A DNA stretch of 22,728 nucleotides from a virus. Below, one piece after another: positions 4,407 through 21,913 of the stretch. The stretch covers positions 1-22,728 of the IMG/VR virus record IMGVR_UViG_3300040794_000008. One strand, written 5' to 3'. The position numbers were made by a program, and so were the translations under genes. Below the pieces are notes generated by a model that worked only from the letters and a program-made list of their open reading frames with translations, searched no databases and was not told where the DNA came from. How positions within the stretch are numbered: the first letter of the stretch is position 1; each line of letters opens with the position of its first letter.

Positions 4407-4551
4407 CCGCTTCCGCCGCAGGCGCGTTCTGCTGATCGAAGATCTGTTGAATGATGTGCGAGACTTCCGCGAAAGGCTGGCGAGCAAGAACGTTCAGCAC
4501 GTACTGCATGTCTTTAGTCGGCAGGGTGACAGTCAGGGTCTCAGTGGGCAT
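4387..4551 (-). CDS. 54-residue conserved-type phage protein
   Basis: A short gene from ATG 4551 to TGA 4387 encoding 54 residues. It begins MPTETLTVTLPTKDMQYVLN, continues with a helical segment containing RQPFAEVSHIIQQIFDQQ, and ends in an Ala/Glu-rich tail. The pattern 'LTLP..xVxYVLxxLxxxPFxEVxxLIxxIxxQ' is one I recognise from tiny hypothetical proteins in phage structural operons. It overlaps the end of the S74 fibre gene by 11 bases and the start of the nozzle gene by 20 bases, as expected for a coupled gene. It fills exactly the space otherwise left between those two genes. No function is known to me; a small assembly factor is a guess. Confidence 0.7.
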   Translation of the reverse strand: MPTETLTVTLPTKDMQYVLNVLARQPFAEVSHIIQQIFDQQNAPAAEADAIPED

Positions 4552-6166
4552 GGACAGTCCTCGCTAGTTCGCTAACAGCCGCCATCAAGTAGCGTGTCAG
4601 CCGGGTTTCATTTACACGCAGCATTCCGTCGTCGTCTTCCATGACACAGTCCGGGAACACCTCGCGCACGTCTTGTGCGACAAAGCCGACAGATTCGGCA
4701 CCGTCCGCCTTGTAGCGGAATCGCTTTGACTCCAGGCCGGCGAATGCCGGCAGCATCGACTCTGCTGGGCGGAGGTCTTCCTTCAGACGCACGTCGGACG
4801 CAACTGTGCCGGTAACGTTGTTCGCAACACCGTCGCTTCGGATCGTCCAAACCGGGGCGCCAGAAAGTGTGCTGACATTGCCGATGTAGCTTGTGCCTCC
4901 TTCGGATGAGGTAAACAAGCCGCGGAATCCACCGGAGTTACGGCGCCTGAACACCGCCACCGCATTCGACCCAGCAAGGTTGCTAATCGTTTCAGGAATC
5001 GCGGATAGCACGCTGCCGACAACAAGCGACTCGTCATTAGTACTGACCACAGCAGGCCGAATATCCCAGTAATGGCTAACGCCGGTGCCAGTGTTGTATG
5101 GGTCGGTGCCAATCTGAAGGACCGCGTTGCGCACCGAGGCCGTCTCGCGCTGCCGCGCCGCAAATACCCGCGTCGATGTCTCCGTGCCTCGAATGGTGAA
5201 TGACGACGCACCGCTACCCAAGAAGTCTCCCCCTGGCCCGAGAGTAATGTCATTGGTGCTGCCGTTGATCTTAAAAGCGTACTCGTCGCCCGAGCGAATG
5301 CCGATGATTGGACCATTGGAGAACTGGAACCAAAGCTGCTCGGCATTTTGGGTTAATTCGCCGGGGCCGATAGCCCAATGATGGGGTACAACAGTTGAAC
5401 CAGTGCCTGGCTTATCCGCAGCAGCAAGACCAATGAGCCCAACCATTCCGTGTGTACCTTCAAACCCGCGAAGTTGGACCAAGGGCGAATAACTGTCCCC
5501 GTTGGCTGCGCGCCAAATTAGCTCCAGTGCTTGGTCGCGGTAAATGGTTGAGTCTGCCTTGCGCGGGTAGTAGATCATCCCGCGCATCGCCGCACCGTCA
5601 GCCGCAATCTCCGATTCAACTCTCAGCATGGCCGATGACGCCCAGCCTGTGAGCGGGGCTCGGGCTGCGCCGATACGAGTATTGACCCCCGCCGTCAGCC
5701 GGCAGTGGCCCTGTGCGCTGTCAATGTCACCGACATCAACAACGGAGTAGTCGTTCACGCCGATAGCAGAATGATTGACCCGAAGCAGTGGGGTCTCGCT
5801 GGAGCTTTCAACCACAAACTGGTCGGTCGTTGGGTCCAGCGGGCACGTGATGATCAGGCCAGCAGACCCTGCGTTGAGCGGAACAATTGTGTTCTCCGCG
5901 CCGGTTGGCTGCTGCTTGATGTACTCCGTTTCTGATGGCCCGGAATCGGATGTGATCTGTACCCACTGCCCGTTGCGTCGCCCGAAGATCGCAGAGGGGT
6001 CAACCCCGCCGCCAACGTCCGCGACAACGTCGAGGTAGTTGAGTACCTCCTGACGTGTCTGGGACTCCCCAAGGCCGTCCCAGACGGCGTTAGCGACGGT
6101 GTTGAGGTACCCGGCGCAAATCGGCGTTGATGCGTCGTTATCGACAAAGACTGGTTTGGTGCTCAT
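4541..6166 (-). CDS. Tail fibre/spike with C-terminal S74 intramolecular chaperone
   Basis: A 541-residue protein. The N-terminus (MSTKPVFVDNDASTPICAGYLNTVANAVWDGLG) resembles virion-attachment segments. The long middle is beta-rich with many short strand-turn units, as in trimeric fibres. The last 85 residues are an S74-type self-cleaving chaperone: SDVRLKEDLRP contains the Ser457-Lys462 dyad, followed by FRYKADGAESVGFVAQDVREVFP and a terminal helical stretch NETRLTRYLMAAVSELA. In known S74 proteins this domain drives trimerisation of the fibre and is then released by autocleavage before the Ser. A good Shine-Dalgarno AGGAGA sits before ATG 6166 and overlaps the stop of the upstream gene. 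The middle part gives no recognisable enzymatic motif, so it is probably a receptor-binding fibre. Confidence 0.85.
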   Translation of the reverse strand: MSTKPVFVDNDASTPICAGYLNTVANAVWDGLGESQTRQEVLNYLDVVADVGGGVDPSAIFGRRNGQWVQITSDSGPSETEYIKQQPTGAENTIVPLNAGSAGLIITCPLDPTTDQFVVESSSETPLLRVNHSAIGVNDYSVVDVGDIDSAQGHCRLTAGVNTRIGAARAPLTGWASSAMLRVESEIAADGAAMRGMIYYPRKADSTIYRDQALELIWRAANGDSYSPLVQLRGFEGTHGMVGLIGLAAADKPGTGSTVVPHHWAIGPGELTQNAEQLWFQFSNGPIIGIRSGDEYAFKINGSTNDITLGPGGDFLGSGASSFTIRGTETSTRVFAARQRETASVRNAVLQIGTDPYNTGTGVSHYWDIRPAVVSTNDESLVVGSVLSAIPETISNLAGSNAVAVFRRRNSGGFRGLFTSSEGGTSYIGNVSTLSGAPVWTIRSDGVANNVTGTVASDVRLKEDLRPAESMLPAFAGLESKRFRYKADGAESVGFVAQDVREVFPDCVMEDDDGMLRVNETRLTRYLMAAVSELARTVHAH

Positions 6167-6177: not shown

Positions 6178-6490
6178 AAGCGCACGGGACCGCAATACAA
6201 GGGACCGCCTGACAAGGCGTCGAAAGGGAGGTGCCGGGTGGAGGCGAATCCCCACAGTCCAGCGAACAAGGGATCGCCTGGCACGGAACCGCCTGACAAG
6301 GGATAGAGCACGGGCCATCAGTGCCTGGGGGCGTCTTGCAGCCGAGGTCTTGGCATAGGTACTCGTCGTAGCCCTCGACGCCGCAACGGGGCTGTAAGAC
6401 CCAGCAGGGCGAGCCTCCCGCAGCTGCGGCATCCCAGGCAGTCGCGCCGTTGTCCCAGACCGTCGCGCCGTTGTCCCAGATGGTGCTCAC
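6176..6490 (-). CDS. Cysteine-rich protein with WDNGAT and Pro-Cys pentapeptide repeats
   Basis: I choose GTG 6490, which overlaps the adaptor stop as GTGA; an upstream ATG at 6535 would run 49 bases into the adaptor gene. The product is 104 residues with 12 cysteines. Residues 4-20 hold near-perfect heptads (IWDNGAT, VWDNGAT, AWD). Residues 28-51 have four widely spaced cysteines. Residues 60-79 and 92-104 are pentapeptide repeats of the form CxxxP or CxxxD (CSIP, CQAVP, CQAIP, CSLD; then CQAVP, CIAVP), so Cys recurs every 4-5 residues. There is no signal peptide or CxxCH haem motif. It lies between the adaptor and a fibre gene, which suggests a virion or assembly role. Metal binding or disulfide cross-linking is conceivable. 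I do not recognise a named family. Confidence 0.7.
   Translation of the reverse strand: MSTIWDNGATVWDNGATAWDAAAAGGSPCWVLQPRCGVEGYDEYLCQDLGCKTPPGTDGPCSIPCQAVPCQAIPCSLDCGDSPPPGTSLSTPCQAVPCIAVPCA
6182..6310 (-). repeat. 15-bp imperfect repeats encoding Cys-x-x-x-Pro pentapeptides
   Basis: On the plus strand, variants of caagggaccgcctga, caagggatcgcctgg and cacggaaccgcctga recur in two blocks (about 6182-6214 and 6254-6310). They encode the pentapeptide cysteine repeats of the Cys-rich protein. A spacer coding for a Ser/Pro/Gly linker separates the blocks. Confidence 0.75.
6441..6480 (-). repeat. 21-bp-period tandem repeat (WDNGAT heptads)
   Basis: The 19-base unit gtcgcgccgttgtcccaga occurs exactly at 6441-6459 and again at 6462-6480, a period of 21 bases (seven codons). 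It encodes the N-terminal heptads of the Cys-rich protein. Identity at silent positions suggests a recent duplication. Confidence 0.9.
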
Positions 6491-7065
6491 CGGCTTAGCA
6501 CCACCCGAGGCGCCGCGGCGATGTTCTGGTTCCATCCTTGGGCTGCCAAGTTGCCGACGGCACGGTCGTACATCGGCTGCCAGACCTGGATGTTATCTCG
6601 GTCTTTGAACGCGATGGCTGCGGAGCAGAGCATGCCGTACAGCATACAGTCAGGGAAGTAATCCCGCACCCAATGCGCGGGCGTTGAAATCAGCGGGAGT
6701 GACTGGCTGTACTCGATGCGGTAGCGTGTTGCTTCCGACTGAGAAACGGTCAACTCGATACAGTCACCGTGGCTGATAAATCCCTCAACGCAGATTTGAT
6801 CACGTGGGTACGCGGTGCTGAATTGCTGCAACGTCAATGTGCCTCGCGCCACGCGCTGCAAGGCAATGATGTCATAAGGCAGCGGAAGCAGGTCTTGGTT
6901 TGCCTCAGCATCTAGAAATCCGACCCGCTGTAGCCTTGGGTGATCCTTAAGGGCGGTGTTCAACTGCCCCTTGACCACTTCGGCAAACATGTCGAGCTGC
7001 GTGTCAGTCAGGTTGGGCCGGTCGAGAAACTCTTTTACAGCACCAAACAGTTCGTTAAGGGTCAT
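6487..7065 (-). CDS. Head-tail adaptor protein
   Basis: I choose ATG 7065, which overlaps the stop of the upstream deacetylase-fibre gene (ATGA). An in-frame ATG at 7083 would only lengthen the overlap. The product is 192 residues. It starts with a helical block (MTLNELFGAVKEFLDR, then QLDMFAEVVKGQLN), a beta-rich centre (FLDAEANQDLLPLPYDII), and ends with a helix containing YFPDCMLYGMLCSAAIAFKD and NIQVWQPMYDRAVGNLAAQ. The 'Y..LLYG.L..AA..L.D.....W...Y..A' ending is characteristic of podovirus adaptors that dock under the portal, including the SU10-type family. In the virion it would connect the portal to the nozzle. Here it is separated from portal and capsid by the fibre and lysis genes. 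Confidence 0.75.
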   Translation of the reverse strand: MTLNELFGAVKEFLDRPNLTDTQLDMFAEVVKGQLNTALKDHPRLQRVGFLDAEANQDLLPLPYDIIALQRVARGTLTLQQFSTAYPRDQICVEGFISHGDCIELTVSQSEATRYRIEYSQSLPLISTPAHWVRDYFPDCMLYGMLCSAAIAFKDRDNIQVWQPMYDRAVGNLAAQGWNQNIAAAPRVVLSR

Positions 7066-8132
7066 GGATAATACCCCGTGCAATCGTCATCAGTGCAGCC
7101 GAAAGTCGGGAGCGAGGCTTTCAATGCGTCAATCTCCCCATCAGCTGACGTATCCCGCACACCATCAGCGATAATACGGTGATACACGTAGAGTTTAGAG
7201 ACTTCAGTTCCGCCTGGGTGCCCATCACCTTGGTACCAGGTCCAAGTATTCGGCAACGATGACGAGGGGTACGCTGCGTCAAAGGCCGCGTCGGAATCCA
7301 CAAAGGACTGCCGCAAGGGCAGAAAATCACCCGTTATCCAGTTGCCCTCAACCCAAGGCAACAATAGAGACTCGTTAACGTAATCGTCGGGAGATGCGCC
7401 GCCCACGTTGCCTTCAGGAGTTGCGTTGACGTAGATCCCGGAGAACCAACAGCTCTTCCCGAACTCGACGCACGCCGCCACCGTCTCTTCATGGACTATC
7501 CGGTGGTGAACGTGCCCATACTCTCCCCAAGGGTTGTGTGTAAATATGTTGTGCGCGGGCGTTGTCCGAACAAAATCGCGGATACGATTGCGGAAATGCT
7601 CCCGCTGCATATAGTCCAGGCGCACTGTCTGGTCGGCCCAGATATTCAAAAAGCTGTCTTCTATGGCATTGCCGACCGGGATGCGCAGCCGCAGGTTATA
7701 CCAGCTCGGCAATCTCGCTATGCCATAGTAGTGCTTATCACTAAGTGGGTGGGCCGTGACATCGCAGCTCTTTGCCAGATAAAGCGCAGGCAACAGCCAA
7801 AGAATCTCATCGTCAAAATGAGCTACCGTGAGTGCTATCCCTCCGTCTACTAAAGCAGAAGCAGACAGAGACCCGTCAGAGAATAGCGGAGAAATGCTCG
7901 GGGTCGGGTCAACCCCTGACGAAAAATTTTCGATAGCCTCCGTGACATCTGCCGGCGACCAAGTGCGGGGCGTTGTGCCTGTGCCAGCAGCCACTTCCGC
8001 CGACGACACCGGGGCGGGCATGTCTGCCTGAAGTGCCTCAATCTCCGATTTAGCCGCACTAAAGTTGTTTCGCACGTTCCCTGTGCTGGCGGCGCCAGCA
8101 GCTGGGTAGGCGGGATTGATGTTGCTAGCCAT
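7062..8132 (-). CDS. Tail fibre protein fused to a PIG-L/LmbE-type deacetylase domain
   Basis: A 356-residue two-part protein. Residues about 1-75 look like a phage fibre N-terminus: AYPAAGAASTGNVRNNFSAA is a typical virion-attachment start, and VSSAEVAAGTGTTPRTWSP is the connector motif common in fibres. Residues about 97-325 carry PIG-L/LmbE metal-dependent N-deacetylase hallmarks: AHFDDE at 104-109 (canonical HPDDE, with H105 and D108 as metal ligands and D107 as probable base) and GHVHHRIVHE at 206-215 (canonical HxDH, with H210 the expected third ligand). The family removes N-acetyl groups from amino sugars. I infer a virion-borne enzyme that deacetylates a surface polysaccharide receptor. 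The Asp-to-His change in HxDH and Pro-to-Phe in HPDDE are deviations. There is no signal peptide, which supports a virion rather than secreted location. Confidence 0.8.
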   Translation of the reverse strand: MASNINPAYPAAGAASTGNVRNNFSAAKSEIEALQADMPAPVSSAEVAAGTGTTPRTWSPADVTEAIENFSSGVDPTPSISPLFSDGSLSASALVDGGIALTVAHFDDEILWLLPALYLAKSCDVTAHPLSDKHYYGIARLPSWYNLRLRIPVGNAIEDSFLNIWADQTVRLDYMQREHFRNRIRDFVRTTPAHNIFTHNPWGEYGHVHHRIVHEETVAACVEFGKSCWFSGIYVNATPEGNVGGASPDDYVNESLLLPWVEGNWITGDFLPLRQSFVDSDAAFDAAYPSSSLPNTWTWYQGDGHPGGTEVSKLYVYHRIIADGVRDTSADGEIDALKASLPTFGCTDDDCTGYYP

Positions 8133-8199
8133 ACGCTATGACCTTAACTGGCGCCCCGCCCGAGCCGTTCACTGCATACCCATCCACCACGATCAGCAC
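8125..8199 (-). other. Orphan reading frame, possible tiny gene or gene remnant
   Basis: In the 98 bases between genes, one minus-strand frame is open from 8277 to a TAG at 8125-8127. It reads as a protein-like C-terminus (DLVLIVVDGYAVNGSGG then APVKVIAYG). The only plausible start inside it is GTG 8199 (24 residues). The stop overlaps the deacetylase-fibre start in the style of this operon. An ATG at 8224 is in a different frame and gives only 26 unlike-protein residues. It may be a decayed tail-gene end, a frameshifted gene, or chance. Confidence 0.25.
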
Positions 8200-8230
8200 T
8201 AGGTCTTCGGTTCGGGCAGGGCATTGAGCG

Positions 8231-8698
8231 TTACGCGCTACGTGCTGTCTTGACCAGGCGCTCCAGGGCCTCGGTGATCATCTTCACCTGATAGCCCTGT
8301 TCGTCGACATTCCACTGCCTGTCGATGGCGATGTCAGCAGCACGCATGTCCTGAGAGTTGCGCCCCTTAGCGTGCGATGACGTCATCTCGCGCTGAGTCT
8401 GATCAAAGTCGGCGCTGTTGCTCAGCTGACGCTGGCGAATGACCGACAGCTCGTCTTCGCGACGCGTGCGGCGGTCGAACATCTCTTCCGTGTGGCGCAG
8501 GAACTGTAGCTGGGCGAGCCGCGTCAAATCGTCGCTGGTCGAGCCGAACTTCGCAAGCCCGGCGGCAACGTGCTCCGCCTCGCCGATGTCGACTTTGACA
8601 TCCGTGGATTTTGACTTGTCGTCGCTGCCGGTGAAACTGGCGCGTTCAACCACTTTCGTCGTGTCAACGTCTTTTTCGATCGTGTCTTGATTCGACAT
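8231..8698 (-). CDS. Hypothetical charged helical protein
   Basis: I choose ATG 8698 (155 residues) because GGAGAAG lies about 6 bases before it, while the in-frame ATG at 8710 has no Shine-Dalgarno. The first about 45 residues are polar and probably disordered (many Asp, Lys, Thr). From about residue 46 it is predicted helical and highly charged, with EMFDRRTRREDELSVIRQRQ, SADFDQTQREMTSSH and a C-terminal helix MITEALERLVKTA. There are no cysteines, no membrane segment and no enzymatic motif. It sits between the lysis genes and the deacetylase fibre. I do not recognise the family. A coiled-coil virion or assembly protein is plausible, and nothing excludes a host-takeover role. Confidence 0.6.
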   Translation of the reverse strand: MSNQDTIEKDVDTTKVVERASFTGSDDKSKSTDVKVDIGEAEHVAAGLAKFGSTSDDLTRLAQLQFLRHTEEMFDRRTRREDELSVIRQRQLSNSADFDQTQREMTSSHAKGRNSQDMRAADIAIDRQWNVDEQGYQVKMITEALERLVKTARSA

Positions 8699-10004: not shown

Positions 10005-10523
10005 TTACTCGGTAGCGAATTCTTCTGCGGTGTAGCCCTCAACGTCGTGGAGCACGCGGAGAAATTTGGGCCCTTGACGTTGATTGGCTGGTTGTTGACA
10101 GTAGTTGAGCACCGCGTCACGACCCTCTAGCGTGACATTACGCCCGACCTGTCTATTATTGATTAGATAGGTGCCTGTTTCTTCGATTTGCGCGTCAGTC
10201 GATAGTGTTCTAGCGACGCCATTTTGAACCCGCGCGATGCGGAACATCTTGACCAGCGGAACGTCTTCAGCGTCAAGAATAACGTCCTCCTGCACCAACT
10301 GTTGCCCATCGCGGATTGCCTTCGGTCGCTCGGGGAGTTTTGCGGACCACTGTAGCCATGGATGCGCCTGCACCTTTCTTGCGCCTTCAAGGGCAAGGAC
10401 GTACGCCTCAAATAAAGCATACGCCTCGGCATACTGAAGCCCCATGCAGCCCGCTTCGATAGCTGCCTGAATGCCGTCCTCGCAAGCGCCCATGTCGCGG
10501 AGAAACTGTTCTGTAATGATCAT
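10005..10523 (-). CDS. Hypothetical protein coupled to the polyglycine adhesin gene
   Basis: I choose ATG 10523 (172 residues), which overlaps the adhesin stop as ATGA. The longer frame to 10739 only shadows the Gly-rich coding sequence. The product starts MIITEQFLRDMGACEDGIQA, is helical to about residue 60 (YAEAYALFEAYVLALEGARK), has a central block (LPERPKAIRDGQQLVQEDV) and a beta-rich C-terminal half ending EGYTAEEFATE. No membrane segment or catalytic motif is seen. Its place directly after an adhesin gene, where T-even phages encode or process adhesins and many phages carry fibre-assembly chaperones, suggests a fibre-assembly factor. That is inference from position only. I do not recognise the family. 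Confidence 0.65.
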   Translation of the reverse strand: MIITEQFLRDMGACEDGIQAAIEAGCMGLQYAEAYALFEAYVLALEGARKVQAHPWLQWSAKLPERPKAIRDGQQLVQEDVILDAEDVPLVKMFRIARVQNGVARTLSTDAQIEETGTYLINNRQVGRNVTLEGRDAVLNYCQQPANQRQGPKFLRVLHDVEGYTAEEFATE

Positions 10524-11479
10524 GCTAGACCGCCGTGCAGGTGACCCCCGCCAGAAAAACCTCCAGTCAGTCTGACCGAGAAGCCCTGCGTGACGATTGC
10601 GGCCCCGCCGGCTCCTCCGAACTGATCCCAAGGAGGGCCCGGCTCCTCGGTTTCTCTGACATTCCCGCCGGCAGCGCCCCAACCACCACCACCCGCGGCT
10701 AGGGGAATAGCACTGCCACCACCATCGCGGCCTACCCATGCGTCATCGCCAGGCTGATCTTCAGACCCGCCGTCCGCCGGAGTAGTAGGCGCCATTCCGG
10801 GGAACGATCCCCCGCCGCCGCCAATACCGGGGAAACCACTGCCCCCGCCGCCGCCAGCACCGGACACACTGTTTGCAGTATCGAAAACCCCGCCGCCGCC
10901 GCCAGCGGTGCCTCCTTGCCCACCAAGCGCCGGTGCACCTGTCGATCCACCTGGCTGGCCCTGACCACCAAGAATAGAAGAACCAGCGCCGCCAACGGGC
11001 ACATCAGCAGTAACGCTATCATATCCTCCCTGTCCGCCCCCAGCGCCGCCACCTCCGCCGACGCACGCTTTTATGCCGTAGGTCGACGCTCCCCCTCCGC
11101 CGCCGCCCGCTATGAAGCCAGTCCCGGCGATCGTGACGTCCTGAGCAATCCTGATGGCTGGCCCGCCGGCCTGAGCCTCCTCAATGACTACACCATCGGC
11201 ACCATTGAGTTTTTGCCCATTGCCGCCTTTTCCGTACACGGCCCCGTTGATCTCCAGCGTCAGCCGACCGCCTACGTCTTCGACGTCAAGGGCCGGCGCG
11301 GCAATCGATCCTGAGAAAAGATATCTGCTTGCTGGAAGCACGAAACGAACGGGTACGGTACCCTCCCAGCCAAATGTCTCAAGAAGGTCACGCGTCACCA
11401 AAACATTTTGGGCATTCACTGGGTAAACAACGACAAACTCATTGTCCGTTGCGAGGATTTTGATGTGCATTGGGTGCAT
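10520..11479 (-). CDS. Glycine-rich tail adhesin (polyglycine-sandwich type)
   Basis: A 319-residue protein; ATG 11479 forms TAATG with the collagen-like fibre stop. Residues 1-105 are beta-rich: YPVNAQNVLVTRDLLETFGW, FVLPASRYLFSG, then LTLEINGAVYGKGGNGQKLNG. From about residue 120 there are repeated glycine runs (GGGGGG, CVGGGGGAGGGQGG, GAGGGGGSG, GIGGGGG, AAGGGGWG) separated by short variable loops. It ends in TQGFSVRLTGGFSGGGHLHG. This design, strings of poly-Gly helices alternating with exposed loops, is like the gp38 adhesins of some T-even phages, in which the loops bind the receptor. The N-terminal part matches a common phage fibre-tip family with 'YGKGGxGG'. It probably forms the receptor-binding tip working with the collagen-like fibre encoded just before it. 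Confidence 0.8.
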   Translation of the reverse strand: MHPMHIKILATDNEFVVVYPVNAQNVLVTRDLLETFGWEGTVPVRFVLPASRYLFSGSIAAPALDVEDVGGRLTLEINGAVYGKGGNGQKLNGADGVVIEEAQAGGPAIRIAQDVTIAGTGFIAGGGGGGASTYGIKACVGGGGGAGGGQGGYDSVTADVPVGGAGSSILGGQGQPGGSTGAPALGGQGGTAGGGGGVFDTANSVSGAGGGGGSGFPGIGGGGGSFPGMAPTTPADGGSEDQPGDDAWVGRDGGGSAIPLAAGGGGWGAAGGNVRETEEPGPPWDQFGGAGGAAIVTQGFSVRLTGGFSGGGHLHGGLA

Positions 11480-12981
11480 TAGACGTTATGCCCCAAATGC
11501 TTCCCAAACAATACAGAATCTATTTTCCAGAAGCAGAACCAGTTTGTTGCATCGCTGAGATACTGCGGGGGCTGCCCGACCCACGTCATAGATGGCCATG
11601 TGATCGTATACAACAACGTATTACCAACCCCATAGAGGGCAGACTCGCCCTCATTGAGGCTGTCAGTAAACGTCACGTTAGTGTTCAACGCATACATCCT
11701 TGTCGGTGGGCGCCCCTCAATAACGGCCCAGACTCCAGTGTTTGTTGCGGTCCAGCCATGGGCTGCTTGGTAAGTGTATTGGTGGTCCCAGGCCCAATTC
11801 GACGTAATTGCGCTATCAATAGCGCCGTCAACCGGGACGTCATCGAGATTGACAGGCCCAGGCGGCCCTTCGGGGCCGGTGTCGCCGATATCACCTTTGA
11901 CGCCCTGCTCACCTTGGATGCCTTGTGGTCCCTCAGGACCGTCTGGACCCTGCGGCCCCGTGTCGCCAGTGTCGCCCTTCGCCCCAGGAAGCCCCTGAGG
12001 GCCTTCTGGACCCTCAGCACCGACAGGCCCCTCGGGTCCGGTGTCGCCCGTGTCGCCCTTATCGCCTGGTAGACCCTGTGGGCCGATCGGCCCGTCAGGC
12101 CCCTGTGGGCCGGTGTCGCCGGTATCGCCCTTGAGCCCCTGCGGCCCCTCGGGGCCGGTATCGCCTTGCGGCCCCTGGATTCCCTGCTCTCCTTGGAGGC
12201 CTTGGGGGCCTGTGTCTCCGGTGTCACCCTTTGGACCCTGGAGACCTTCCGGTCCCTCAGGTCCAGCCGGACCCTGCTCACCTTGAGGGCCTTCAGCGCC
12301 CGGGGCGCCTTGCAGGCCCTGGTCGCCGGTATCGCCCTTCGGACCCTCGGGGCCACGGATCGGGCCGACGTTGGTCCATTGCGCACCATCCCAGGTCAGG
12401 CCGTCGCCGGCCATCGCGTTAGGCGGATCGTCTTCACTGACAATCCACATATCGCCAGAATTGGCATCGACAATCGCGATGATGTTGGCGTAGGTATCGG
12501 TACCGATGATGGTGACACCCGACCCAGCCTCGCCTTGCGGGCCGGTTGGTCCTTCCGGCCCTTCCGGACCAGTGTTGCCGGTGTCGCCTTTGTCACCTTT
12601 AGGACCTTCCGCGCCTGTCGGTCCTGCGGGGCCTTGAGTACCCTGCGGGCCTTCCGGTCCTTCTGGACCTTGCGGGCCGGGCACCGTCGAATCAGCGCCG
12701 TCTTGTCCAGGATCGCCTTGTGGCCCTGGAGGTCCTTCCGGTCCTTCCGGTCCAGCCGGAATCCCAGCAATGATCGCGTCAGTTTCAGCTTCTGTATAGT
12801 ACCGCCCGTCATGGTCGGCACTGGTCTTGTGCGTGTTCAGTTCGGTCGCTTTGGAGAACCCAAGGGCGCCTTTCTGGATGATCGTGTTTTCGTTGGGCGC
12901 GCCGGGTTCCACCGCCGTCAAAAAGTCGGTGTCTTCAAGGCTCGTAACCTCGCGGAATTCACTGATCTTCTGGTCAGCCAT
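11479..12981 (-). CDS. Collagen-like tail fibre protein
   Basis: A 500-residue protein. Residues 1-75 are an attachment region starting [20 protein letters not shown], a common phage fibre N-terminus. Gly-X-Y collagen repeats occupy about 77-153 and 206-375, rich in GPEGPQ, GDTGDT and GPKGDT triplets. A non-collagen insert (154-205, with [12 protein letters not shown] and GLTWDGAQW) separates them. It looks like the small beta module often inserted in phage fibres. Residues 376-500 are a globular C-terminal domain ([18 protein letters not shown], then [13 protein letters not shown]), a likely trimerisation or tip domain. Phage collagen-like proteins form homotrimeric rods. The gene overlaps the coiled-coil gene upstream by 8 bases and the adhesin gene downstream, so fibre and tip are probably translated together. 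Confidence 0.88.
11857..12366 (-). repeat. Collagen (Gly-X-Y) repeat block 2
   Basis: A 9-base periodic GC-rich coding repeat giving about 56 Gly-X-Y triplets (residues 206-375). Higher-order near-repeats are visible, such as the GDTGDTGP unit recurring four or more times. It is likely prone to length change by recombination or slippage. Confidence 0.85.
12523..12753 (-). repeat. Collagen (Gly-X-Y) repeat block 1
   Basis: Coding repeat for residues about 77-153 with one short interruption (GADSTVPGP, about residues 95-103). It precedes the non-collagen insert of the same fibre. Confidence 0.85.
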
Positions 12982-13666
12982 TGGAAAGAGCCTTTACCGC
13001 CAATCCAAAACCTTCGAACTGGTGCTGCAAAACAGTTAGCTTATCGTCGATCTGTTTGACGGATGCTTGGGCTCGATACAGCATCTGCTCTGATTTATCG
13101 TGCAGCGTCTTGGCCTTGTCCTCAAGAGTCTTTTCCACCGCCACCATTCGAGCAGTCGTCTTCGCCATGCGGTCTTGTGCGCTTGCGATATCTACCTGGA
13201 CTTCCTTCAGCAAGGCGTCGCGCTGCTCTTGTAAAGAGGCCATCGACGCATCCGCCAATGCCTGGACGGCCTTCCTGGACTGGTCTAAATCCATCTGCTG
13301 TTTGCCGAGGGTCTTGGCCTTGCCGTCGAGATCGGCCATAAGCGCCGCAACCTCCGCTGCAAGCTGCTCGCGGTGCTCGATTGCTTCGGCTTTATTGGCC
13401 TCGACCACTGCTTGAATCTTGACAATTTTGCCCGCCATGTCGTCAGCCCAGCGCCGGGCTTCTTGACGTACCACGGAAAGCTCTTGAATCCTGCGGGCCA
13501 TTGTTGCCGCTTCTGAAGCGCGGGCGGCGGTTACATCCTGCATTTGTGCTTGGGTCTGCTTTAGCCCCTTCACTGCTGCCCTGACCTCCGCTTTCAGCTC
13601 GGCCAACAACGGGTCAAACATTTCGCGGGCAAGCGCCGTCAGCTCCTCTTTACCTACTTGCTTCAT
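12974..13666 (-). CDS. Long alpha-helical coiled-coil protein
   Basis: A 230-residue protein starting at ATG 13666, with GGAGA about 8 bases upstream. After about residue 10 it is almost entirely helical, with heptad-like spacing, many Ala, Lys, Glu and Gln, and no prolines. Examples are [20 protein letters not shown], then [20 protein letters not shown], and a C-terminal helix [19 protein letters not shown]. There is no membrane segment or enzymatic motif. It overlaps the collagen-fibre gene by 8 bases and the upstream gene by ATGA. I infer a trimeric rod or stalk linking a virion-attached protein to the collagen fibre. A free assembly or host-interacting factor is the alternative. No named family is recognised. 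Confidence 0.65.
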
Positions 13667-14421
13667 GAGCTTGTCTCCGTCTTGGTCCGGTCGCTGCCTT
13701 CGGTAAGTAGATAATCGCCAGCTTCAGTTCTGATGAACTCGCCAACGGGGAGCATTTCGAGCCGCAAGTCAATCGTGATTGGTGTATCGGACGACCCAAT
13801 GTTGTTGAACTGCAGGATGGCCGTCGTGATCCCCTCAAGGAGCCCAGACGGGTCCATCGTCACGTCGACCCAGTCCATCGGACCCTGCCCGCTGGTCTTG
13901 CTGACCGTGAACGCAACGCGCTCCGGCGCCTCGGACAGCGACCACGCGCTGGACTGCCCGTCGTCCCACCGACTTTGTAAATAGACACGTGTCGTGATCG
14001 GTTGGGTATCACCAACGTTCGCTTGGACCGTGATATTGGTAGTCGAAGCCCAGGAGCCTGCGTCCGGATTAAGCAGGCCGACCTCGGTCCAGAACATCTC
14101 CCAATCAGCGCCAACACCGGGTTCGCTCTCAGGCACAACGCCGTGATCGGCGTTGGCGATGAAATAGTGGTGCGTGCTGTCCTCGTTGGAGTGGTAGACG
14201 ACGTCGCATTCGGCATACGTGCCAGGCGTTCCAACCCAGTTACCGCGACCAATGAACTCAGGGCATGTAAACTGTGGCGGGCGGGGACCTCCGTCAATGC
14301 TGCCAAGAAAGTTACCAGTGGTATGCGCACAAATACCGCCTCCAATATTCTGCATTAGTGGCCCAGACAAATTACGTCCACGCCAAAAAAGCAATCTATT
14401 TTGCGGTTTGCAACTAACCAT
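13663..14421 (-). CDS. Virion-type protein with possible carbohydrate-binding module
   Basis: A 252-residue product from ATG 14421, which overlaps the upstream stop by 8 bases; an internal ATG 14355 (230 residues) is a real alternative. Residues about 55-112 read GNWVGTPGTYAECDVVYHS, HHYFIANADHGVVPESEP, ADWEMFWTEV. This matches the pattern 'W..G..Y..GDVV.Y....Y.A...H....P......W' seen in CBM5/12-like chitin-binding and related fibre modules. The rest is beta-rich, with VYLQSRWDDGQSSAWSLSEA, then ILQFNNIGSSDTPITIDLRL. It leads the fibre gene set, so I infer a virion protein binding surface glycans. The first about 22 codons are AT-rich, unlike the rest of the gene, because the base-composition boundary falls here. 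Confidence 0.6.
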   Translation of the reverse strand: MVSCKPQNRLLFWRGRNLSGPLMQNIGGGICAHTTGNFLGSIDGGPRPPQFTCPEFIGRGNWVGTPGTYAECDVVYHSNEDSTHHYFIANADHGVVPESEPGVGADWEMFWTEVGLLNPDAGSWASTTNITVQANVGDTQPITTRVYLQSRWDDGQSSAWSLSEAPERVAFTVSKTSGQGPMDWVDVTMDPSGLLEGITTAILQFNNIGSSDTPITIDLRLEMLPVGEFIRTEAGDYLLTEGSDRTKTETSS

Positions 14422-14809
14422 CTGAATTTTGCTCTTTAATTGGCAAAATGCTGCCTTTATCTGGCGACATAGAATCTGGAATCAAATTCTTATTCACGGT
14501 GCGTAACCGCTCCCCAAGTGGTGAGCGTAGCAGCTTAAGCCATGCGGCGGTTGCGATTTGTGGGTCAGTAGACCTTAAATCTGGGTTAGCTTTTACTAAC
14601 TGTTGATAATCTGCAAAAGGTATATTACCGATAGGTAATGACCAACTGCCTTTTCTAGTAACTGCCGCTTTACCGATTACCTTTCTTGACTCTTGATTTT
14701 GTGCGTAATATGGATCTGTATTCTGCACTCTTACATGCCGAAATTCTGATCCGTTATACTCCACATAGTGGACGCCATCCGTGGCTGTTTCTAGAATCCG
14801 TCTAGCCAT
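14414..14809 (-). CDS. Conserved-type hypothetical protein following the capsid gene
   Basis: A 131-residue protein beginning MARRILETATDGVHYVEYNG, with the middle phrase NPDLRSTDPQIATAAWLKLL followed by RSPLGERLRTV. I recall similar small proteins encoded just after the major capsid in other podoviruses, though without a known function. The start lies six bases after the capsid stop with no clear Shine-Dalgarno, so coupling to capsid translation is likely. Its composition is AT-rich like the head module, and it is the last gene before the shift to GC-rich DNA. A head-completion or decoration role is possible. No membrane segment or catalytic motif is present. Confidence 0.65.
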   Translation of the reverse strand: MARRILETATDGVHYVEYNGSEFRHVRVQNTDPYYAQNQESRKVIGKAAVTRKGSWSLPIGNIPFADYQQLVKANPDLRSTDPQIATAAWLKLLRSPLGERLRTVNKNLIPDSMSPDKGSILPIKEQNSDG

Positions 14810-14815
14810 CGTAGC

Positions 14816-15913
14816 TTACGCAGTAACAGCCAAAGTAGGGTCAAGGTCAGAAATGACACCGCTGGCCTTTTCTTGAAGGCAAAGCAGACTAACATCACAA
14901 GACACATACTTATGATCAGAAAGACCTACTTTGGCCAGAGGTTTGGTCATGTAACCTTGCAGCGTAGAGTTGGCCCAATACTCAGGGTCAATTAGCAACA
15001 AATCGCAAGCATCGGCAGACCCGGCACCGCCATCCAAGCTGTCGTACAGCTCGTACTGACGATCAGGTACTAGCTCAAGCGTAATACCAAAGTCAGTAGC
15101 AATGACGTTCACTGAGCCATACGCAGTCAACCCAACGCTGTCACTGCCACTACCTTGCTTTTTGTCACTGCTCAGCGTAGCAATTTGCGCAGAGGCATTA
15201 AACTGCCAAGCGCTATACTTACGAATCATCTTAGGATGACTGATAGCATAGCGAGGATTGCCACCTGCCATGAAAATATCTTCAAGCAGGTCACGTACCA
15301 TTGTGTCACTAAGCGCGCGCTTCGTGCCTGCAACTGGAGCTACAGAAGGATAGCCAGCTTTGTTGACGTTATCCGACATTTCCGGAGCATCAGCGTCTGA
15401 AGCAGCGTTTCGGTTAGTGTATAACCAAGTAGGCGCACCAGGTAACTTACCAGGACCAGTAGTTGCAGCGTTAGCCACAATACCATCACCAACCTGACTA
15501 GCTTGGGGATAAAGCTTGATTGCTTCTTCGTCACGCTTGATCTCTTTCTGGATCATCGCTACCTGAAAGAGCAACTCATCGGCCCGGGCAATAGTGTCTA
15601 CGTTTTGAGCACGCTCAGAAACGTCAACGTTGTCCAGCAAGATCTGGTGGTAGGCACCAAGACGCTTACCTTCATCGCCTTTCTTGCTGGTAACCGGCTG
15701 GCCATCAACAGCAGCATTAGCAATGTTACGTGCGCGTAGTGCACGTTCGGTAAACTCTTTGTAGATATTACTGGCAGAAACATTGCCAATCATATCAATA
15801 AAGGGGCGCTCTACAGGATCAATGTTGTAGAGCTGATCCATAACGTCTTCACTTATGAGACCACCAACCGGAGCGTTACGAAGGTTAATGGCGTCTGTAT
15901 TAGTGCTCGCCAT
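14816..15913 (-). CDS. Major capsid protein (SU10-like, HK97 fold)
   Basis: A 365-residue protein starting at ATG 15913, with GAGGA about 9 bases upstream. The N-terminus MASTNTDAINLRNAPVGGLI, then SEDVMDQLYNIDPVERPFID, is characteristic of the SU10-type major capsid family, which has the HK97 fold. An E-loop-like region covers about 55-110 (TERALRARNIANAAVDGQPV). Peripheral and axial domain strands follow, with YAISHPKMIRKYSAW and LLLIDPEYWANSTLQGYMTKP. It builds the icosahedral head on the scaffold encoded upstream. There is no N-terminal protease or delta domain, consistent with a separate scaffold. GC content is intermediate, higher than in the portal gene, as is common for highly expressed capsid genes. 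Confidence 0.88.
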   Translation of the reverse strand: MASTNTDAINLRNAPVGGLISEDVMDQLYNIDPVERPFIDMIGNVSASNIYKEFTERALRARNIANAAVDGQPVTSKKGDEGKRLGAYHQILLDNVDVSERAQNVDTIARADELLFQVAMIQKEIKRDEEAIKLYPQASQVGDGIVANAATTGPGKLPGAPTWLYTNRNAASDADAPEMSDNVNKAGYPSVAPVAGTKRALSDTMVRDLLEDIFMAGGNPRYAISHPKMIRKYSAWQFNASAQIATLSSDKKQGSGSDSVGLTAYGSVNVIATDFGITLELVPDRQYELYDSLDGGAGSADACDLLLIDPEYWANSTLQGYMTKPLAKVGLSDHKYVSCDVSLLCLQEKASGVISDLDPTLAVTA

Positions 15914-15923
15914 AATTCTATCC

Positions 15924-16568
15924 TCACATTAGGTCAGTTAAAGAGACATCACTCGTATAAAGAGTGCCTTTCATCAAGTTTTCCTTCGCGGTTAATATTT
16001 GCAAGTTCCACGCTACATGGAGCCCACAAACATTCTTACCTGCTAAAGGAATAATATGGTCAACGTGTCTCTCAACCCCTGTCATTACTGTGAGATTCTG
16101 AGCTTGGTCATAAATCTCCAATATGTCCTTATGGCTAACCCACTCGGGTGTCGCTCGTAACTCTTTTGCTCGTCTCCGAGCTGCGGCTGCTGTGTTAAGC
16201 GCCCGACTTCGCTCAGGATTTGCTTCTTCCCAAGCTTTGTTGCACTGCCTAACTTTGTCAGGATTTGCTTTTGCCCATGCTTTTGCCCACGCTTTGTATC
16301 TTTCTGGGTGTTTTTTATACTGAACACGTGCCGCGGCTTTACACTTTTCAGGATGCTTTTCGTAGTGCTTGCGCGATGCAGCTTTTACAGAAGCTTTTCC
16401 TTCTTTTGTTGCACGCTGCTGCTCTTGAATTTCATTTGTACAAGTTTTGCACCTACTGCGAAGCGATACCGTATTAGCCTTTTTATTTTTATATAGACTA
16501 AAGTTATCACGCTCTTTGATCTCACCGCAGCAACTGCATCGCTTAAAGTCTGGGCGAATGTCTCGCAT
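15924..16568 (-). CDS. HNH endonuclease (free-standing, homing-type)
   Basis: A 214-residue protein. The N-terminus has a zinc-ribbon-like pair: Cys11-x2-Cys14 (CSCCG) and Cys40-x2-Cys43 (RCKTC). The middle (about 62-130) has four basic repeats around HPEK, HPER, NPDK and NPER, each followed by KA/RA helices, typical of DNA-contacting linkers in phage HNH enzymes. The nuclease motif lies near 168-200: HVDHIIPLAGKNVCGLH, then NLQILTAKEN. It fits the HNH pattern, with the catalytic His in VDHIIPL and metal ligands in the later Asn and Asn/Lys. It sits between scaffold and capsid, a common site for homing genes. ATG 16568 overlaps the scaffold stop (TAATG), so insertion has preserved coupling. 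It may cut related phage genomes lacking it. Confidence 0.9.
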   Translation of the reverse strand: MRDIRPDFKRCSCCGEIKERDNFSLYKNKKANTVSLRSRCKTCTNEIQEQQRATKEGKASVKAASRKHYEKHPEKCKAAARVQYKKHPERYKAWAKAWAKANPDKVRQCNKAWEEANPERSRALNTAAAARRRAKELRATPEWVSHKDILEIYDQAQNLTVMTGVERHVDHIIPLAGKNVCGLHVAWNLQILTAKENLMKGTLYTSDVSLTDLM

Positions 16569-17602: not shown

Positions 17603-17811
17603 TTTAATTCCTCTCGGAGTTTATTCATTATTTCGTGTAAAACACTTAGCTTATCTCTGAGTCTAAGTGCTGCTTCATCGGACATTTCAGGCTGAAATTC
17701 CAAAAACATTTGAGCAGATAAAACATCAGTCAACTCAATAAACACTTCAGGTGTTATTTGGCTTAACTGAGCTTTCACCGCCGGGGACAGGGTCGTTATC
17801 ATACTTTGCAT
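17599..17811 (-). CDS. Small helical protein between portal and scaffold genes
   Basis: A 70-residue reading frame whose stop overlaps the scaffold start (ATGA). It encodes helices rich in Leu and Glu (ITPEVFIELTDVLSAQMF, then DEAALRLRDKLSVLHEIM). The first ATG 17811 runs 65 bases into the portal gene, and codon 4 (17802) and later GTG or ATG codons are alternatives. None has a clear Shine-Dalgarno, so the start is unsettled. Small genes at this position are common in podoviruses. An assembly role is inferred from place only. No cysteines, membrane segment or known motif are seen. Confidence 0.55.
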   Translation of the reverse strand: MQSMITTLSPAVKAQLSQITPEVFIELTDVLSAQMFLEFQPEMSDEAALRLRDKLSVLHEIMNKLREELK

Positions 17812-19771
17812 TCAGTTCAATAAGTTTTAGTCTAAGTTCTTCATATTTAAGCGTTAATTCTTCCATGTCTACTGGTTGCTGCATATTAAGCTCAAGCTGC
17901 TTTATTTCGTTCCGTAGCATTTGAACTGTTGCAGCACTTTGCGCTTTAATTTGCTCAATCTGCGGCAGCAACTGCATGTTCATCATTTGAACTTGCATTT
18001 CCATTTGCTTTTGCTCTTGCATCGCTTGTTGCTTTTGCTGTGCAAGTTGCTGTCCTTGTTGACTTTGTGGGTCAATATAGTATGAGTAGCTATGCGGAAT
18101 CATCAAAGCATTCGCACGCGCAATAAGCAGTCTGTACATTTCTTGTTCTGTTACAAGAGTACTGCCTTGCTGCATAAGCTCTTTTTGCTCTCCAATAAGT
18201 ACGCTATACTGTTGCCCTTGACGTAATCTGTCTCCCATGGTTAAGCCAAGCGCAGTTGTTACATGTGTACGCTGCGGCCATAACTGTGGGGTAGAACAAA
18301 TCCAATTACCCCCTACTTTAGCTTGAGCTTCACCTTGAAAATTTTTGCGAAGATTAGAATGAATCTTGACGTAAATTTGTGCTAAAAGTGTTTCTGCAAG
18401 AGTTTTTGCAACTAGGCTATTAAGCTGCTCCATGGCAGACATAATGCGTTCTAGTCCATGCGCAGTGTCTCCGCCTACTAATATTTCTTCATTTGCTTTA
18501 TCAATGGCAGAGCCGCCACTTTCTTTCCTAGTCTTATCCATAATCCCAAGAAGTTCTGCCACTTCTGCGGGATATCTGTCGCCAGGAAGAGGCACAACAC
18601 CATTTGGCGTAGTGAGGCGCACCCATCCACCAAATACTGAAGTGTTTAAATCATCAATGTTAGCTTGATTACCAACTACACCAAGACGTGATCTTGCTGC
18701 ACGCTCACCTGCTGTTAGCAACTGGCGTAATACTTTAGTTTTTACGTCTGCTACTTGTTTAATTGTGTCGTATAAGCTAACTCCAGCAACTCTATGTGGC
18801 TGGATAAATGGCACACCTACACAATAAGGTTGATAATCAATAGGCTCATCTTCTAGTATTGTAGGAGACGTTTCTAAGTTACCTGCAGCAACAATTCTGC
18901 GTCTTTCTGCAATACCATCATCATCCTCATCAACTTGGAAGTAACAAAAAGCAACACGAACTTTTTTAACTAAATTTGTGTTATCTGTAGTAATTTGATC
19001 TTGCTTATGAGGTACTTGATACGTATTTTCAGCGTAATCTGGCAACGTATCAATAAGTTCTCTAGAGTAGCCTAGCTCAACTAGCTCAGAAGACGTTAAA
19101 ATACGCTCCCGGGCTACAAAACGTGCAGAATCTAAATTAGGCTCTTCGTGATCTCCGTTAAAAAGCAACTCATCTGGAGGAAAAGCTTTGACAACTAACG
19201 ATTGTACTTCAGTTGTCTTTCTAAGTTGTACTTTTTTTATAAAATAACCAGTTTCATCTGCTTCTTCAATATCTACAATATCAATTTGATCATTTGACTG
19301 TTGCTCTAGCATAGAAGTTAAAATTTCTATGTTAGTATCTTCAATAGTTAAATAAGAAACTTCTTGCCGTTTAACAGTCTGAACTTCAACTACACCTAAT
19401 CTACGAAGTAATGAGTCTTTAATTGCAGTAGTTAGCTGGATAAACCCACTATTTTGCTCTAAAAAGATGTTGTTTACAAGTTTAGTTTCAACTTGTGCTT
19501 GCGCTTCGTCACCTGGGCCTTCAGGAACAAAAACAACAGGAGATTCCGAGGCAAAAGCAGGCATAATGTCTGCTAACGTATGCTCTACAGCGTTTGGAAC
19601 GTCTGGAGAAACAATAGACTTAAAATACTCACTAACGTCTTTGTCAATAATGCCAGGTAACTCTCTGTTAAAATAACCTAATGCATCTTCTGTATTTTGA
19701 AGGTAATTATCTTCGTAATAGCTTCTTGCGTTAAGAAGCTCTTTAGCTAACCTTGATTTAATCGTCTGCAT
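17747..19771 (-). CDS. Portal protein
   Basis: A 674-residue protein, the usual size for podovirus portals. The N-terminus is helical (SRLAKELLNARSYYEDNYLQ) and is followed by LGYFNRELPGIIDKDVSEYF, a family-typical segment. The large central alpha/beta part contains VGVPFIQPHRVAGVSLYDTI, a signature near the crown-wing transition in podovirus portals, and the LLTAGERAARSRLG helix. From about residue 567 a Gln/Met-rich helix of almost 90 residues (QQLAQQKQQAMQEQKQMEMQ and onwards) suggests a C-terminal barrel as in P22. It forms the dodecameric DNA gate and docks the terminase encoded one base upstream. The start ATG 19771 lacks a clear Shine-Dalgarno, so coupling to terminase is likely. Base use is strongly AT-rich. 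Confidence 0.88.
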   Translation of the reverse strand: MQTIKSRLAKELLNARSYYEDNYLQNTEDALGYFNRELPGIIDKDVSEYFKSIVSPDVPNAVEHTLADIMPAFASESPVVFVPEGPGDEAQAQVETKLVNNIFLEQNSGFIQLTTAIKDSLLRRLGVVEVQTVKRQEVSYLTIEDTNIEILTSMLEQQSNDQIDIVDIEEADETGYFIKKVQLRKTTEVQSLVVKAFPPDELLFNGDHEEPNLDSARFVARERILTSSELVELGYSRELIDTLPDYAENTYQVPHKQDQITTDNTNLVKKVRVAFCYFQVDEDDDGIAERRRIVAAGNLETSPTILEDEPIDYQPYCVGVPFIQPHRVAGVSLYDTIKQVADVKTKVLRQLLTAGERAARSRLGVVGNQANIDDLNTSVFGGWVRLTTPNGVVPLPGDRYPAEVAELLGIMDKTRKESGGSAIDKANEEILVGGDTAHGLERIMSAMEQLNSLVAKTLAETLLAQIYVKIHSNLRKNFQGEAQAKVGGNWICSTPQLWPQRTHVTTALGLTMGDRLRQGQQYSVLIGEQKELMQQGSTLVTEQEMYRLLIARANALMIPHSYSYYIDPQSQQGQQLAQQKQQAMQEQKQMEMQVQMMNMQLLPQIEQIKAQSAATVQMLRNEIKQLELNMQQPVDMEELTLKYEELRLKLIELNAKYDNDPVPGGESSVKPNNT

Positions 19772-19772
19772 A

Positions 19773-21152
19773 TCAGTGATGATTTGGCTGATTAATAGGA
19801 ATATTCCAATCTTTGGTATATCCTAAAATTTCGTAACTTTCACCAGCACCAACCATTGCGTACTGAACAGCTTCACAAACGTGTGAGTACATTGTTTTAT
19901 CTGGCTTATCATGATAGCGCTCTTCGCCTACTACCATAATACGCTTAAACTTATAGCCGCCGCCCATACCTTTTCTAAGCATTTTGCACTTTGACGAAAT
20001 AATAAATCCAGGCTGCCCTGTAAATGTCATTCGTGTTAGCTTATGTGCAACTGCTTCGCGCCTAATCGAGAAATCATTAGTAGGTGCTGGCTGCGCCGAC
20101 AACCCCAAGGAGTTAAGGATCATAAACGGCGTTGTTTCGTCCGTCTGAGCTGCTTGATCTCCTGCAGGATCACCCCATAACTCTGCATCCATGTGCGCAT
20201 AATCTCTACGTAAGAGTCTACCTAACTCTTCACCAAAGTTTAATGCACCCATTCGCTCAGAAACAAGCTCATCAACAATCCGCCACTGCCCTTGAATATT
20301 TTGACAAAAAGCAGCTGCTGGTGTCAAACCGAAGTCAATACCTATATAAATGGGCTCTTCTCGAACAACAGGAATCTCATAGTCCACCGCATGAACATCA
20401 TCATTATACTCTGGGTAGACTGGATTACCGTCGCTCACAAAGCCATACTTCCCATGCACATAAACATTGATCCATTCTTGGGTTTTACCAGTCTGCATAT
20501 TTTCGTAGTATGTAGCTGGTAAATTTTCTCTGTTTTCAGCACCAGGACCTACTCCAGATGGTTGATGAAACAACTGCCAGTTACTAGGCCGCTTTTCCTC
20601 AAACATCTTGTAAAACCAGTGGTCTACATCCGGTGGGTTAGTATCTAAAATAATACCGTGCCAGTAGTTATTCACTGATTTTCTTGCTGGGTATCTTCCG
20701 ACACGACCCATAAGCATGTCTAGCACTGCTTTTGGTACTTCTCTAGCCTCGTTAATCCAAGCACCAGTCAGCTCAAGTGACAATAGCTTTCTAATATCTT
20801 GCGGGCGATCAAGGGCCCTGAACATTACTTCAAGTTCAACAACACTACCGTCTCCTGGCGCAAACTTGGCAACAAAGTTCATACTTTGCTGATTATACTT
20901 CCCCAAGTCTTGTGGTATCCACTCAAAGAAAGTACGACACGTTGTATCTTTTAACTCAATATACGTATTTCTAATTACGGCCCAGCGGCTTTGCCGAATA
21001 CCTTCACTGCTTAGTGGTTGCCTACATGCCTTACGTAAGATTTCAACACAACAAGCTACAGATTTACCAGATCCAATTGGCCCCAGAAGAGCTCGTACAA
21101 ACTCATCAGACTTATGGAATTGTCTGCATGTGGGTGACGCAACATATTCCAT
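19773..21152 (-). CDS. Terminase large subunit
   Basis: A 459-residue DNA-packaging motor with ATPase and nuclease domains. Walker A is GPIGSGKS (24-31). The Walker B region is LTGAWINEAREVP (129-140) with Glu135 as catalytic acid; the Asn before it (instead of Asp) is usual in this podovirus group. The coupling motif is LDTNPP (169-174). The RNase H-like nuclease is shown by IGIDFG (Asp273), WGDPAG (Asp328) and KPDKTMYSHVCEAVQYAM (Asp418). ATG 21152 overlaps the upstream stop (TAATG), and portal begins one base after its stop. It cuts concatemeric DNA and pumps it through the portal. The packaging strategy (headful, cos or direct terminal repeats) cannot be decided from this alone. Confidence 0.95.
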   Translation of the reverse strand: MEYVASPTCRQFHKSDEFVRALLGPIGSGKSVACCVEILRKACRQPLSSEGIRQSRWAVIRNTYIELKDTTCRTFFEWIPQDLGKYNQQSMNFVAKFAPGDGSVVELEVMFRALDRPQDIRKLLSLELTGAWINEAREVPKAVLDMLMGRVGRYPARKSVNNYWHGIILDTNPPDVDHWFYKMFEEKRPSNWQLFHQPSGVGPGAENRENLPATYYENMQTGKTQEWINVYVHGKYGFVSDGNPVYPEYNDDVHAVDYEIPVVREEPIYIGIDFGLTPAAAFCQNIQGQWRIVDELVSERMGALNFGEELGRLLRRDYAHMDAELWGDPAGDQAAQTDETTPFMILNSLGLSAQPAPTNDFSIRREAVAHKLTRMTFTGQPGFIISSKCKMLRKGMGGGYKFKRIMVVGEERYHDKPDKTMYSHVCEAVQYAMVGAGESYEILGYTKDWNIPINQPNHH

Positions 21153-21913
21153 TACTGCCGCTGTTTCTGTATTAGCTGGTAGATATACTTAGCAGCATTT
21201 GAAAGCGTAAACGGCATACTAGACTCTTGTTCTTCAGCGCTGCGCATACTTGGAGTGTGCAAGTAAGCAGCTTTAAGAAAGTCTGATTTAGACTGAACAT
21301 CTGGGAAAGCTTGAGTGTACCGGGGGTCATCCCAAACCCGAGTACCACTTGGATATGTAGCGTCATGGCCTGCCATAGCAGCCATTGCTTCATTAGGATT
21401 AGTTTGATATCGCTCTGGAAAGTACTCAGAAGGAACTACGCTTTCGTAGTCAAGAGGAGCGACGTCAGGATTGTATTCGATACCAGCAGCACGCTGATTT
21501 CTAGGCGCATGCCCTACCAACTCATGCCCTAAAAGATAACCACCTTTATCAGATGCTAACGTATTCTGATCAAGATAAACAGTGTCGCCTTTGCCAACGT
21601 CTGTGGCTCCGTAGATATACCCACCGCCACCTTGATCATGCCTAGCATCAAGTGTTTGCATAAACCGCTGATCTACTGGATTTAAGTTAACTCTTGGTAA
21701 CCACTCAGTATCTCTTGGGAAGTACAGCTCTGGATATTGTGCAGCAAGAGTGTCTTCATACTGCTTTAGCGTTTCAGCTAATCCGTAGAGTTCAATTGGA
21801 TACTCTTGTGAGCTAACGTCAGGCAAGTCATAGTTATCCACAAAAAATTGCGCCAGCTCAGGTCTGACGCCAAGTTCCTGCAACGCACGAGACTTGTCAA
21901 TCGTAGAAGGCAT
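21152..21913 (-). CDS. Putative metallopeptidase-like protein with HExxxH motif
   Basis: A 253-residue protein encoded between the two terminase genes. The N-terminal 70 residues are helical and acidic with Tyr/Pro patches. Residues 110-135 read TVYLDQNTLASDKGGYLLGH then ELVGH. The His130-Glu131-x3-His135 spacing has one residue more than classical HExxH. A downstream NPNEAMAAMAGH (Glu175) would suit a third metal ligand as in gluzincins. I recall HExxGH variants in large phage polyvalent proteins, so a zinc-dependent hydrolase is plausible but unproven. No signal peptide is present. It could be carried in the virion or act early in morphogenesis. The rest is not recognisable. The 5' end carries a small duplication (see the repeat at 21907-21943). 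Confidence 0.55.
   Translation of the reverse strand: MPSTIDKSRALQELGVRPELAQFFVDNYDLPDVSSQEYPIELYGLAETLKQYEDTLAAQYPELYFPRDTEWLPRVNLNPVDQRFMQTLDARHDQGGGGYIYGATDVGKGDTVYLDQNTLASDKGGYLLGHELVGHAPRNQRAAGIEYNPDVAPLDYESVVPSEYFPERYQTNPNEAMAAMAGHDATYPSGTRVWDDPRYTQAFPDVQSKSDFLKAAYLHTPSMRSAEEQESSMPFTLSNAAKYIYQLIQKQRQ

Follow-up and report, generated by a model that had tools for sequence, protein, structure and literature searches.

In the current study, we characterized the gene for a 356-aa protein, P0001, within a 22.7-kb fragment of a virus (the window, i.e., the whole 22,728-nt stretch of DNA analyzed). The gene lies on the minus strand, with its ATG at 8132 and a TGA stop at 7062–7064, and the plus strand of the same interval is broken by stops; a preliminary description had placed the ORF correctly and left its strand unstated. 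The neighborhood comprises genes for a terminase, portal, capsid, collagen-like fiber, amidase, P0001, adaptor, S74-chaperone fiber and virion structural protein (Table 1), which together form the structural module of an SU10-type phage with a short tail. The amidase, a lysis gene, lies shortly upstream of the P0001 gene (9092–9880). On the downstream side, the stop codon of P0001 overlaps the ATG of the adaptor gene in an ATGA junction, and the same junction is found in Thiohalocapsa phage LS06-2018-MD04 (MD04; fiber–PIG-L gene 13159–14223, adaptor gene 14220–14813). Elsewhere on the minus strand, we observed a fiber gene with long collagen-like Gly-X-Y repeats (11479–12981) followed by a glycine-rich, gp38-like gene (10520–11479), and an HNH-endonuclease-like ORF between the scaffold and capsid genes (15924–16568). 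Two further minus-strand ORFs had no Pfam match: a small acetyltransferase-like ORF near the virion structural gene (1445–1858; conserved in MD04 at 43%) and, upstream of the terminase gene, an ORF that bears an HELVGH motif and may encode a metallopeptidase (21152–21913).

Table 1. Features of P0001 and selected virion genes of the window (residue numbers are those of P0001).
Feature	Position	Strand	Evidence
Tail fiber–PIG-L fusion protein P0001, 356 aa	7062..8132	-	Full-length MD04 homologue, 49% identity
N-terminal tail-fiber anchoring module (supported), residues 1–38, MASNINPAYPAAGAASTGNVRNNFSAAKSEIEALQADM	8019..8132	-	66 viral contigs
Linker/connector, residues 45–73, AEVAAGTGTTPRTWSPADVTEAIENFSSG	7914..8000	-	Conserved in MD04
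PIG-L/LmbE catalytic domain core, residues 94–299	7236..7853	-	PF02585, MshB profile match, structural matches
Metal motif 1, AHFDDE, residues 104–109	7806..7823	-	Alignment; family HXDD + H rule
Metal motif 2, THNPWGEYGHVHHR, residues 198–211	7500..7541	-	Profile alignment to MshB; family roles
WTW motif, residues 297–299	7236..7244	-	Invariant in 36-member family
C-terminal tail, residues 300–356	7065..7235	-	Modeled at low confidence; strong conservation in MD04 alone
SU10-type adaptor (head-tail connector) gene	6487..7065	-	PF24175 E=2.7e-11
Second tail fiber, C-terminal S74 intramolecular chaperone	4541..6166	-	PF13884 8.6e-12
SU10-type major capsid protein	14816..15913	-	PF17236 2e-51
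SU10-type portal protein	17747..19771	-	PF23899 2e-103

The first 38 residues of P0001 match protein N-termini in 66 viral contigs, in ORFs with many different downstream parts, and the PHROGs families of the module-bearing proteins are mostly tail fiber, tail and tail-spike. The MD04 protein matched a profile of this module at 9.5e-17 when MD04 was left out of profile building, and a helix is predicted at residues 17–36. These observations bear out the earlier suggestion of a phage-fiber N-terminus. The module occurs near an SU10-type adaptor gene in seven cases (the window, MD04 and five other contigs); its gene directly adjoins the adaptor gene in L004, L018 and L024, and in L006 and L016 the adaptor lies farther away at the same locus. 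In SU10, the adaptor ring is the docking place of long-fiber N-termini. Taken together, the identification of residues 1–38 as a tail-fiber anchoring module is supported. In more distant phage relatives (L176, L177, L181, L182), the slot before the adaptor is filled by a tail-collar-type protein, a reading of the sequence with no profile match. A "connector motif" had also been described (residues 45–66, about GTGTTPRTWSPADVTEAI). This motif is conserved in MD04, and a linker helix is predicted at residues 60–71; however, a motif census did not reveal it as a general tail-fiber connector. No trimerization domain was identified in P0001.

The remainder of the protein is dominated by a PIG-L/LmbE domain spanning residues ~94–330. 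By itself, P0001 matched the Pfam family PF02585 (PIG-L) at residues 171–220 with E=6e-5 and a score of 24 bits, short of the curated 28.2-bit cutoff, which is a practical rule and not a biological property. Since the single-protein score is under the cutoff, the assignment uses family-profile and fold evidence. PIG-L was matched by all 36 aligned family members, and the relative L086 scored 30.9 bits. A profile of the 36-member family retrieved MshB (1q74, 1q7t, 4ewl) at E ~7e-6, with GEYGHVHH of P0001 aligned to GGYGHPDH of MshB. A phmmer search of the PDB with P0001 alone gave no match, and NCBIfam and PHROGs searches returned nothing useful, the protein being absent from PHROGs. No SGNH/GDSL hydrolase domain was matched in P0001 by Pfam up to E=1, where PIG-L was the only hit, and none of 20,000 shuffles of P0001 held H.DD followed by Y.H..H at LmbE spacing.

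Additionally, an AlphaFold model of P0001 was built from the 36-sequence alignment of PIG-L relatives (pTM 0.60). Most of residues 91–225 had pLDDT values of 65–94, falling to ~50 around 150–170, and residues 1–90 and 300–356 were of low confidence; the single sequence yielded no usable model (pLDDT 33). When the model was structurally re-aligned against the PDB, the best 22 rows were all of the LmbE fold (Z 10.3–13.0, with row 23 at 7.7), a comparison that is not fully independent since the model was built from PIG-L relatives. These 22 matches include teicoplanin/A40926 deacetylases, diacetylchitobiose deacetylases, LnmX, MshB, BshB, TT1542 and GalB, nearly all of them deacetylases; GalB is a hydratase. 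This VIA re-alignment set the LmbE family apart where the Foldseek ranking did not, the latter being uninformative and placing DOT1L and further Rossmann-like proteins near the top at E>1e-3. The best matches in a BFVD search were two weak phage LmbE proteins. Overall, profile and model support the presence of a PIG-L/LmbE-fold domain with a Rossmann-like core, as the preliminary description had proposed and as its suggested comparison with MshB/LmbE structures has now indicated.

According to a review of the LmbE superfamily, members obey the rule HXD1D2 + H, in which D1 is the general base and the second and third ligands are 97–148 residues apart. P0001 fits this rule with H105-F-D107-D108 and H210, with a gap of 102 residues between D108 and H210; H105, D108 and H210 are thus predicted to be the metal ligands and D107 the general base. 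In register with MshB, Y205 corresponds to Tyr142 (oxyanion), H207 to His144 (substrate), H209 to Asp146 and H210 to His147 (third ligand), and in the alignment the catalytic set H105-x-D107-D108 plus Y205-x-H207-x-x-H210 is complete. AHFDDE and GHVHHRIVHE, which had been singled out as PIG-L metal motifs, occupy residues 104–109 and 206–215. A104, H105, D107, D108, T198, H199, N200, G203, E204, Y205, G206, H207, H210 and W297-T298-W299 do not vary among the 36 sequences. An equivalent of the conserved substrate-binding Arg68 of MshB could not be located with confidence in P0001.

Two substitutions in these motifs, Pro to Phe and Asp to His, had previously been said to make specificity or activity worth testing. 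In the family alignment, the first falls on the freely variable X of HXDD. The second concerns the position of MshB Asp146, at which nearly all cellular relatives carry D or E and His occurs in the window, MD04, L070, L072, L085, L086 and L196–L198; these nine His-type sequences form one clade (support 100/99). With the first change at a variable position and the second clade-wide, neither by itself indicates altered activity, and the notion that the His marks lost activity was dropped, as it is fixed through the nine-member clade. These residues bear directly on whether P0001 might be a virion fiber whose PIG-L domain is non-catalytic and binds a glycan or receptor in the manner of a lectin. 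The MshB D146A variant retains 1% or less of its activity, D146 being thought to act indirectly, and a His at this position of P0001 could be read in favor of such a binder. In contrast, a deep clade that includes the window, MD04 and cellular relatives shows no variation at any metal ligand, at the general base or at the Tyr142/His144 equivalents, and His209 gives no sign of decay because His is the norm in its clade, cellular genes included. We regard a purely binding domain as rather unlikely.

The only full-length homologue of P0001 is WBC28574.1 of MD04 (49% identity), which is annotated as a hypothetical protein. In tblastn searches of 50,697 phage records, MD04 was the sole convincing relative with P0001 as the query and the only one with L072 as the query, and a typical cellular member retrieved none. 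P0001 is the most similar of the ten window proteins with a detectable match in MD04, ahead of the adaptor (37%), capsid (31%) and portal (24%) proteins. The MD04 paper, in which CRISPR spacers served to assign the phage to Thiohalocapsa, makes no mention of a deacetylase or of a tail fiber (PMC10370329). A further PIG-L gene of the His-type clade, with a signal-peptide-like start, is found on viral contig L072 (5917–6951), among large structural-looking ORFs for which PHROGs gives no functions. A ~65-residue repeat splits its PIG-L domain, and the neighboring ORF (6983–8638) contains this repeat two times (37–40% identity). L072 is a possible further instance of PIG-L in a phage structural gene region. 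Another viral contig carries a methyltransferase-like domain fused to PIG-L (L078:5368–6531). Separately, a marine phage UDP-sugar dehydrogenase-like gene (L001:17–1954) has an apparent intein-like insertion and lies within a large glycosyltransferase cluster.

The nearest cellular relatives were found in a Thiohalocapsa MAG (L086) and L196–L198, genomes sampled from Chromatiaceae, and in a Bdellovibrio MAG (L085). With Thiohalocapsa as its assigned host, MD04 is the only named phage with the enzyme, whose closest cellular kin thus fall within that host's family. Read by eye, the protein begins in a signal-anchor-like manner in L086 and L198 and has a lipoprotein-like start in L085; for L196 and L197, the start codons used gave no clear signal. 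With export signals in some of them, these relatives suggest that the substrate is a glycan of the surface or periplasm, and O-antigen or capsule is plausible. Our reading is that the phages may carry a form in which the export signal has been replaced by a virion anchor. In Chromatiaceae L086 (3845–5877), L196, L197 and L198, the PIG-L gene adjoins a GDSL/AlgX-like gene, a call based on PF13472 and PF16822 matches below cutoffs in three of the four genomes; the two genes may be a conserved surface-glycan acetyl-editing pair. In Nitrospira, PIG-L is fused to a glycosyltransferase-like region (L130:3962–5953 and L135:3890–5929). The chemistry of such neighbors and relatives also raises the idea that P0001 is an active virion hydrolase with another substrate, i.e., O-acetyl or other N-acyl groups, or amino sugars of peptidoglycan or lipid A during entry. 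Some LmbE-family members hydrolyze N-acyl amides according to the review, and the SGNH/AlgX-like neighbor suggests O-acetyl chemistry nearby. However, all characterized LmbE-like enzymes in the review use N-acetyl or N-acyl glucosamine cores, and we consider a different substrate improbable.

Based on its module order and gene position together with the complete catalytic set, P0001 is probably a fiber of an SU10-type short-tailed phage, with a zinc-dependent PIG-L/LmbE de-N-acetylase acting on a host-surface glycan as its receptor-engaging part. We infer its presence in the virion, activity, substrate and role in adsorption along the following lines. The N-terminal ~38 residues would anchor P0001 at the adaptor ring, as gene adjacency and homologous fiber modules suggest, and the catalytic domain would project outward to take N-acetyl groups off amino sugars of the host surface polysaccharide by the MshB mechanism. 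Zn would be bound by H105, D108 and H210, a metal-bound water activated by D107, and the oxyanion and substrate stabilized by Y205 and H207. The glycan backbone would be left intact, as with G7C gp63.1, and the enzyme could serve in adsorption or in passage through the glycan layer. Since an enzyme family otherwise known from cells, where it strips acetyl groups from amino sugars, is found on an apparent tail fiber, the phage probably modifies the host's sugar coat upon attachment instead of cleaving it, as predicted from sequence. That P0001 is instead a non-virion late protein, altering the host glycan before lysis or masking the receptor against re-adsorption of progeny, is very unlikely: the nearby amidase gene and free-standing PIG-L genes in other phage glycan clusters would suit such a role, whereas P0001 has a tail-fiber N-module in place of the signal peptide of exported relatives, and the gene overlaps the adaptor gene in both the window and MD04.

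P0001 shares its fold, the HXDD + H residues and the Tyr142/His144 equivalents with the LmbE-like superfamily (MshB, teicoplanin deacetylase, diacetylchitobiose deacetylase). It differs in having His for D146 and the WTW motif common to its subfamily and, unlike the known members, which are free enzymes of metabolism and of antibiotic or GPI synthesis, it is fused to a tail-fiber anchor. In a full-text literature search, which covered few subscription papers or bioRxiv preprints, we found no description of a phage virion protein with a PIG-L/LmbE domain. The MD04 protein agrees with P0001 in full-length architecture, gene slot and the overlap with the adaptor gene. This homologue has a predicted host, Thiohalocapsa of the pink berries, and the protein is small enough to be expressed directly. 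The SU10/Kuravirus tail resembles that of the window phage in its capsid, portal and adaptor families; the fiber parts of SU10 described so far resemble T4 fiber tips, with no mention of a PIG-L domain in the passages covered (PMC9509320). Stenotrophomonas phages DLP3 and DLP5 likewise have a PIG-L domain in their genomes, but theirs are free-standing morons of ~212 aa, annotated without a fiber module and located beside the sugar-biosynthesis genes WcaG and WecE.

Deacetylation without backbone cleavage is a recognized entry strategy in G7C, Possum and many Klebsiella prophages. Like P0001 as proposed here, G7C gp63.1, Possum gp66, PP99 gp55 and the Klebsiella prophage SGNH fibers are phage tail proteins whose deacetylation of host polysaccharide spares the backbone. 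These fibers are shown or predicted O-acetyl esterases, and the G7C, Possum and Klebsiella ones have the SGNH fold, in keeping with the earlier remark that known deacetylating tail proteins use another fold; in contrast, the PIG-L domain of P0001 belongs to an unrelated zinc hydrolase fold. If a PIG-L fiber is confirmed, it would extend this strategy to the N-acetyl groups that many capsules, O-antigens and biofilm glycans contain. It would further test whether phage entry can be driven by deacetylation in general and not just by the removal of O-acetyl groups. De-N-acetylation would also turn neutral amino sugars cationic and thereby change the surface charge at the attachment site. On balance, we lean slightly toward the view that tail-mounted PIG-L zinc de-N-acetylases, related to an exported clade of Chromatiaceae and others, represent a separate solution for glycan-editing receptor-binding proteins, alongside the O-acetyl esterase fibers of G7C and its counterparts.
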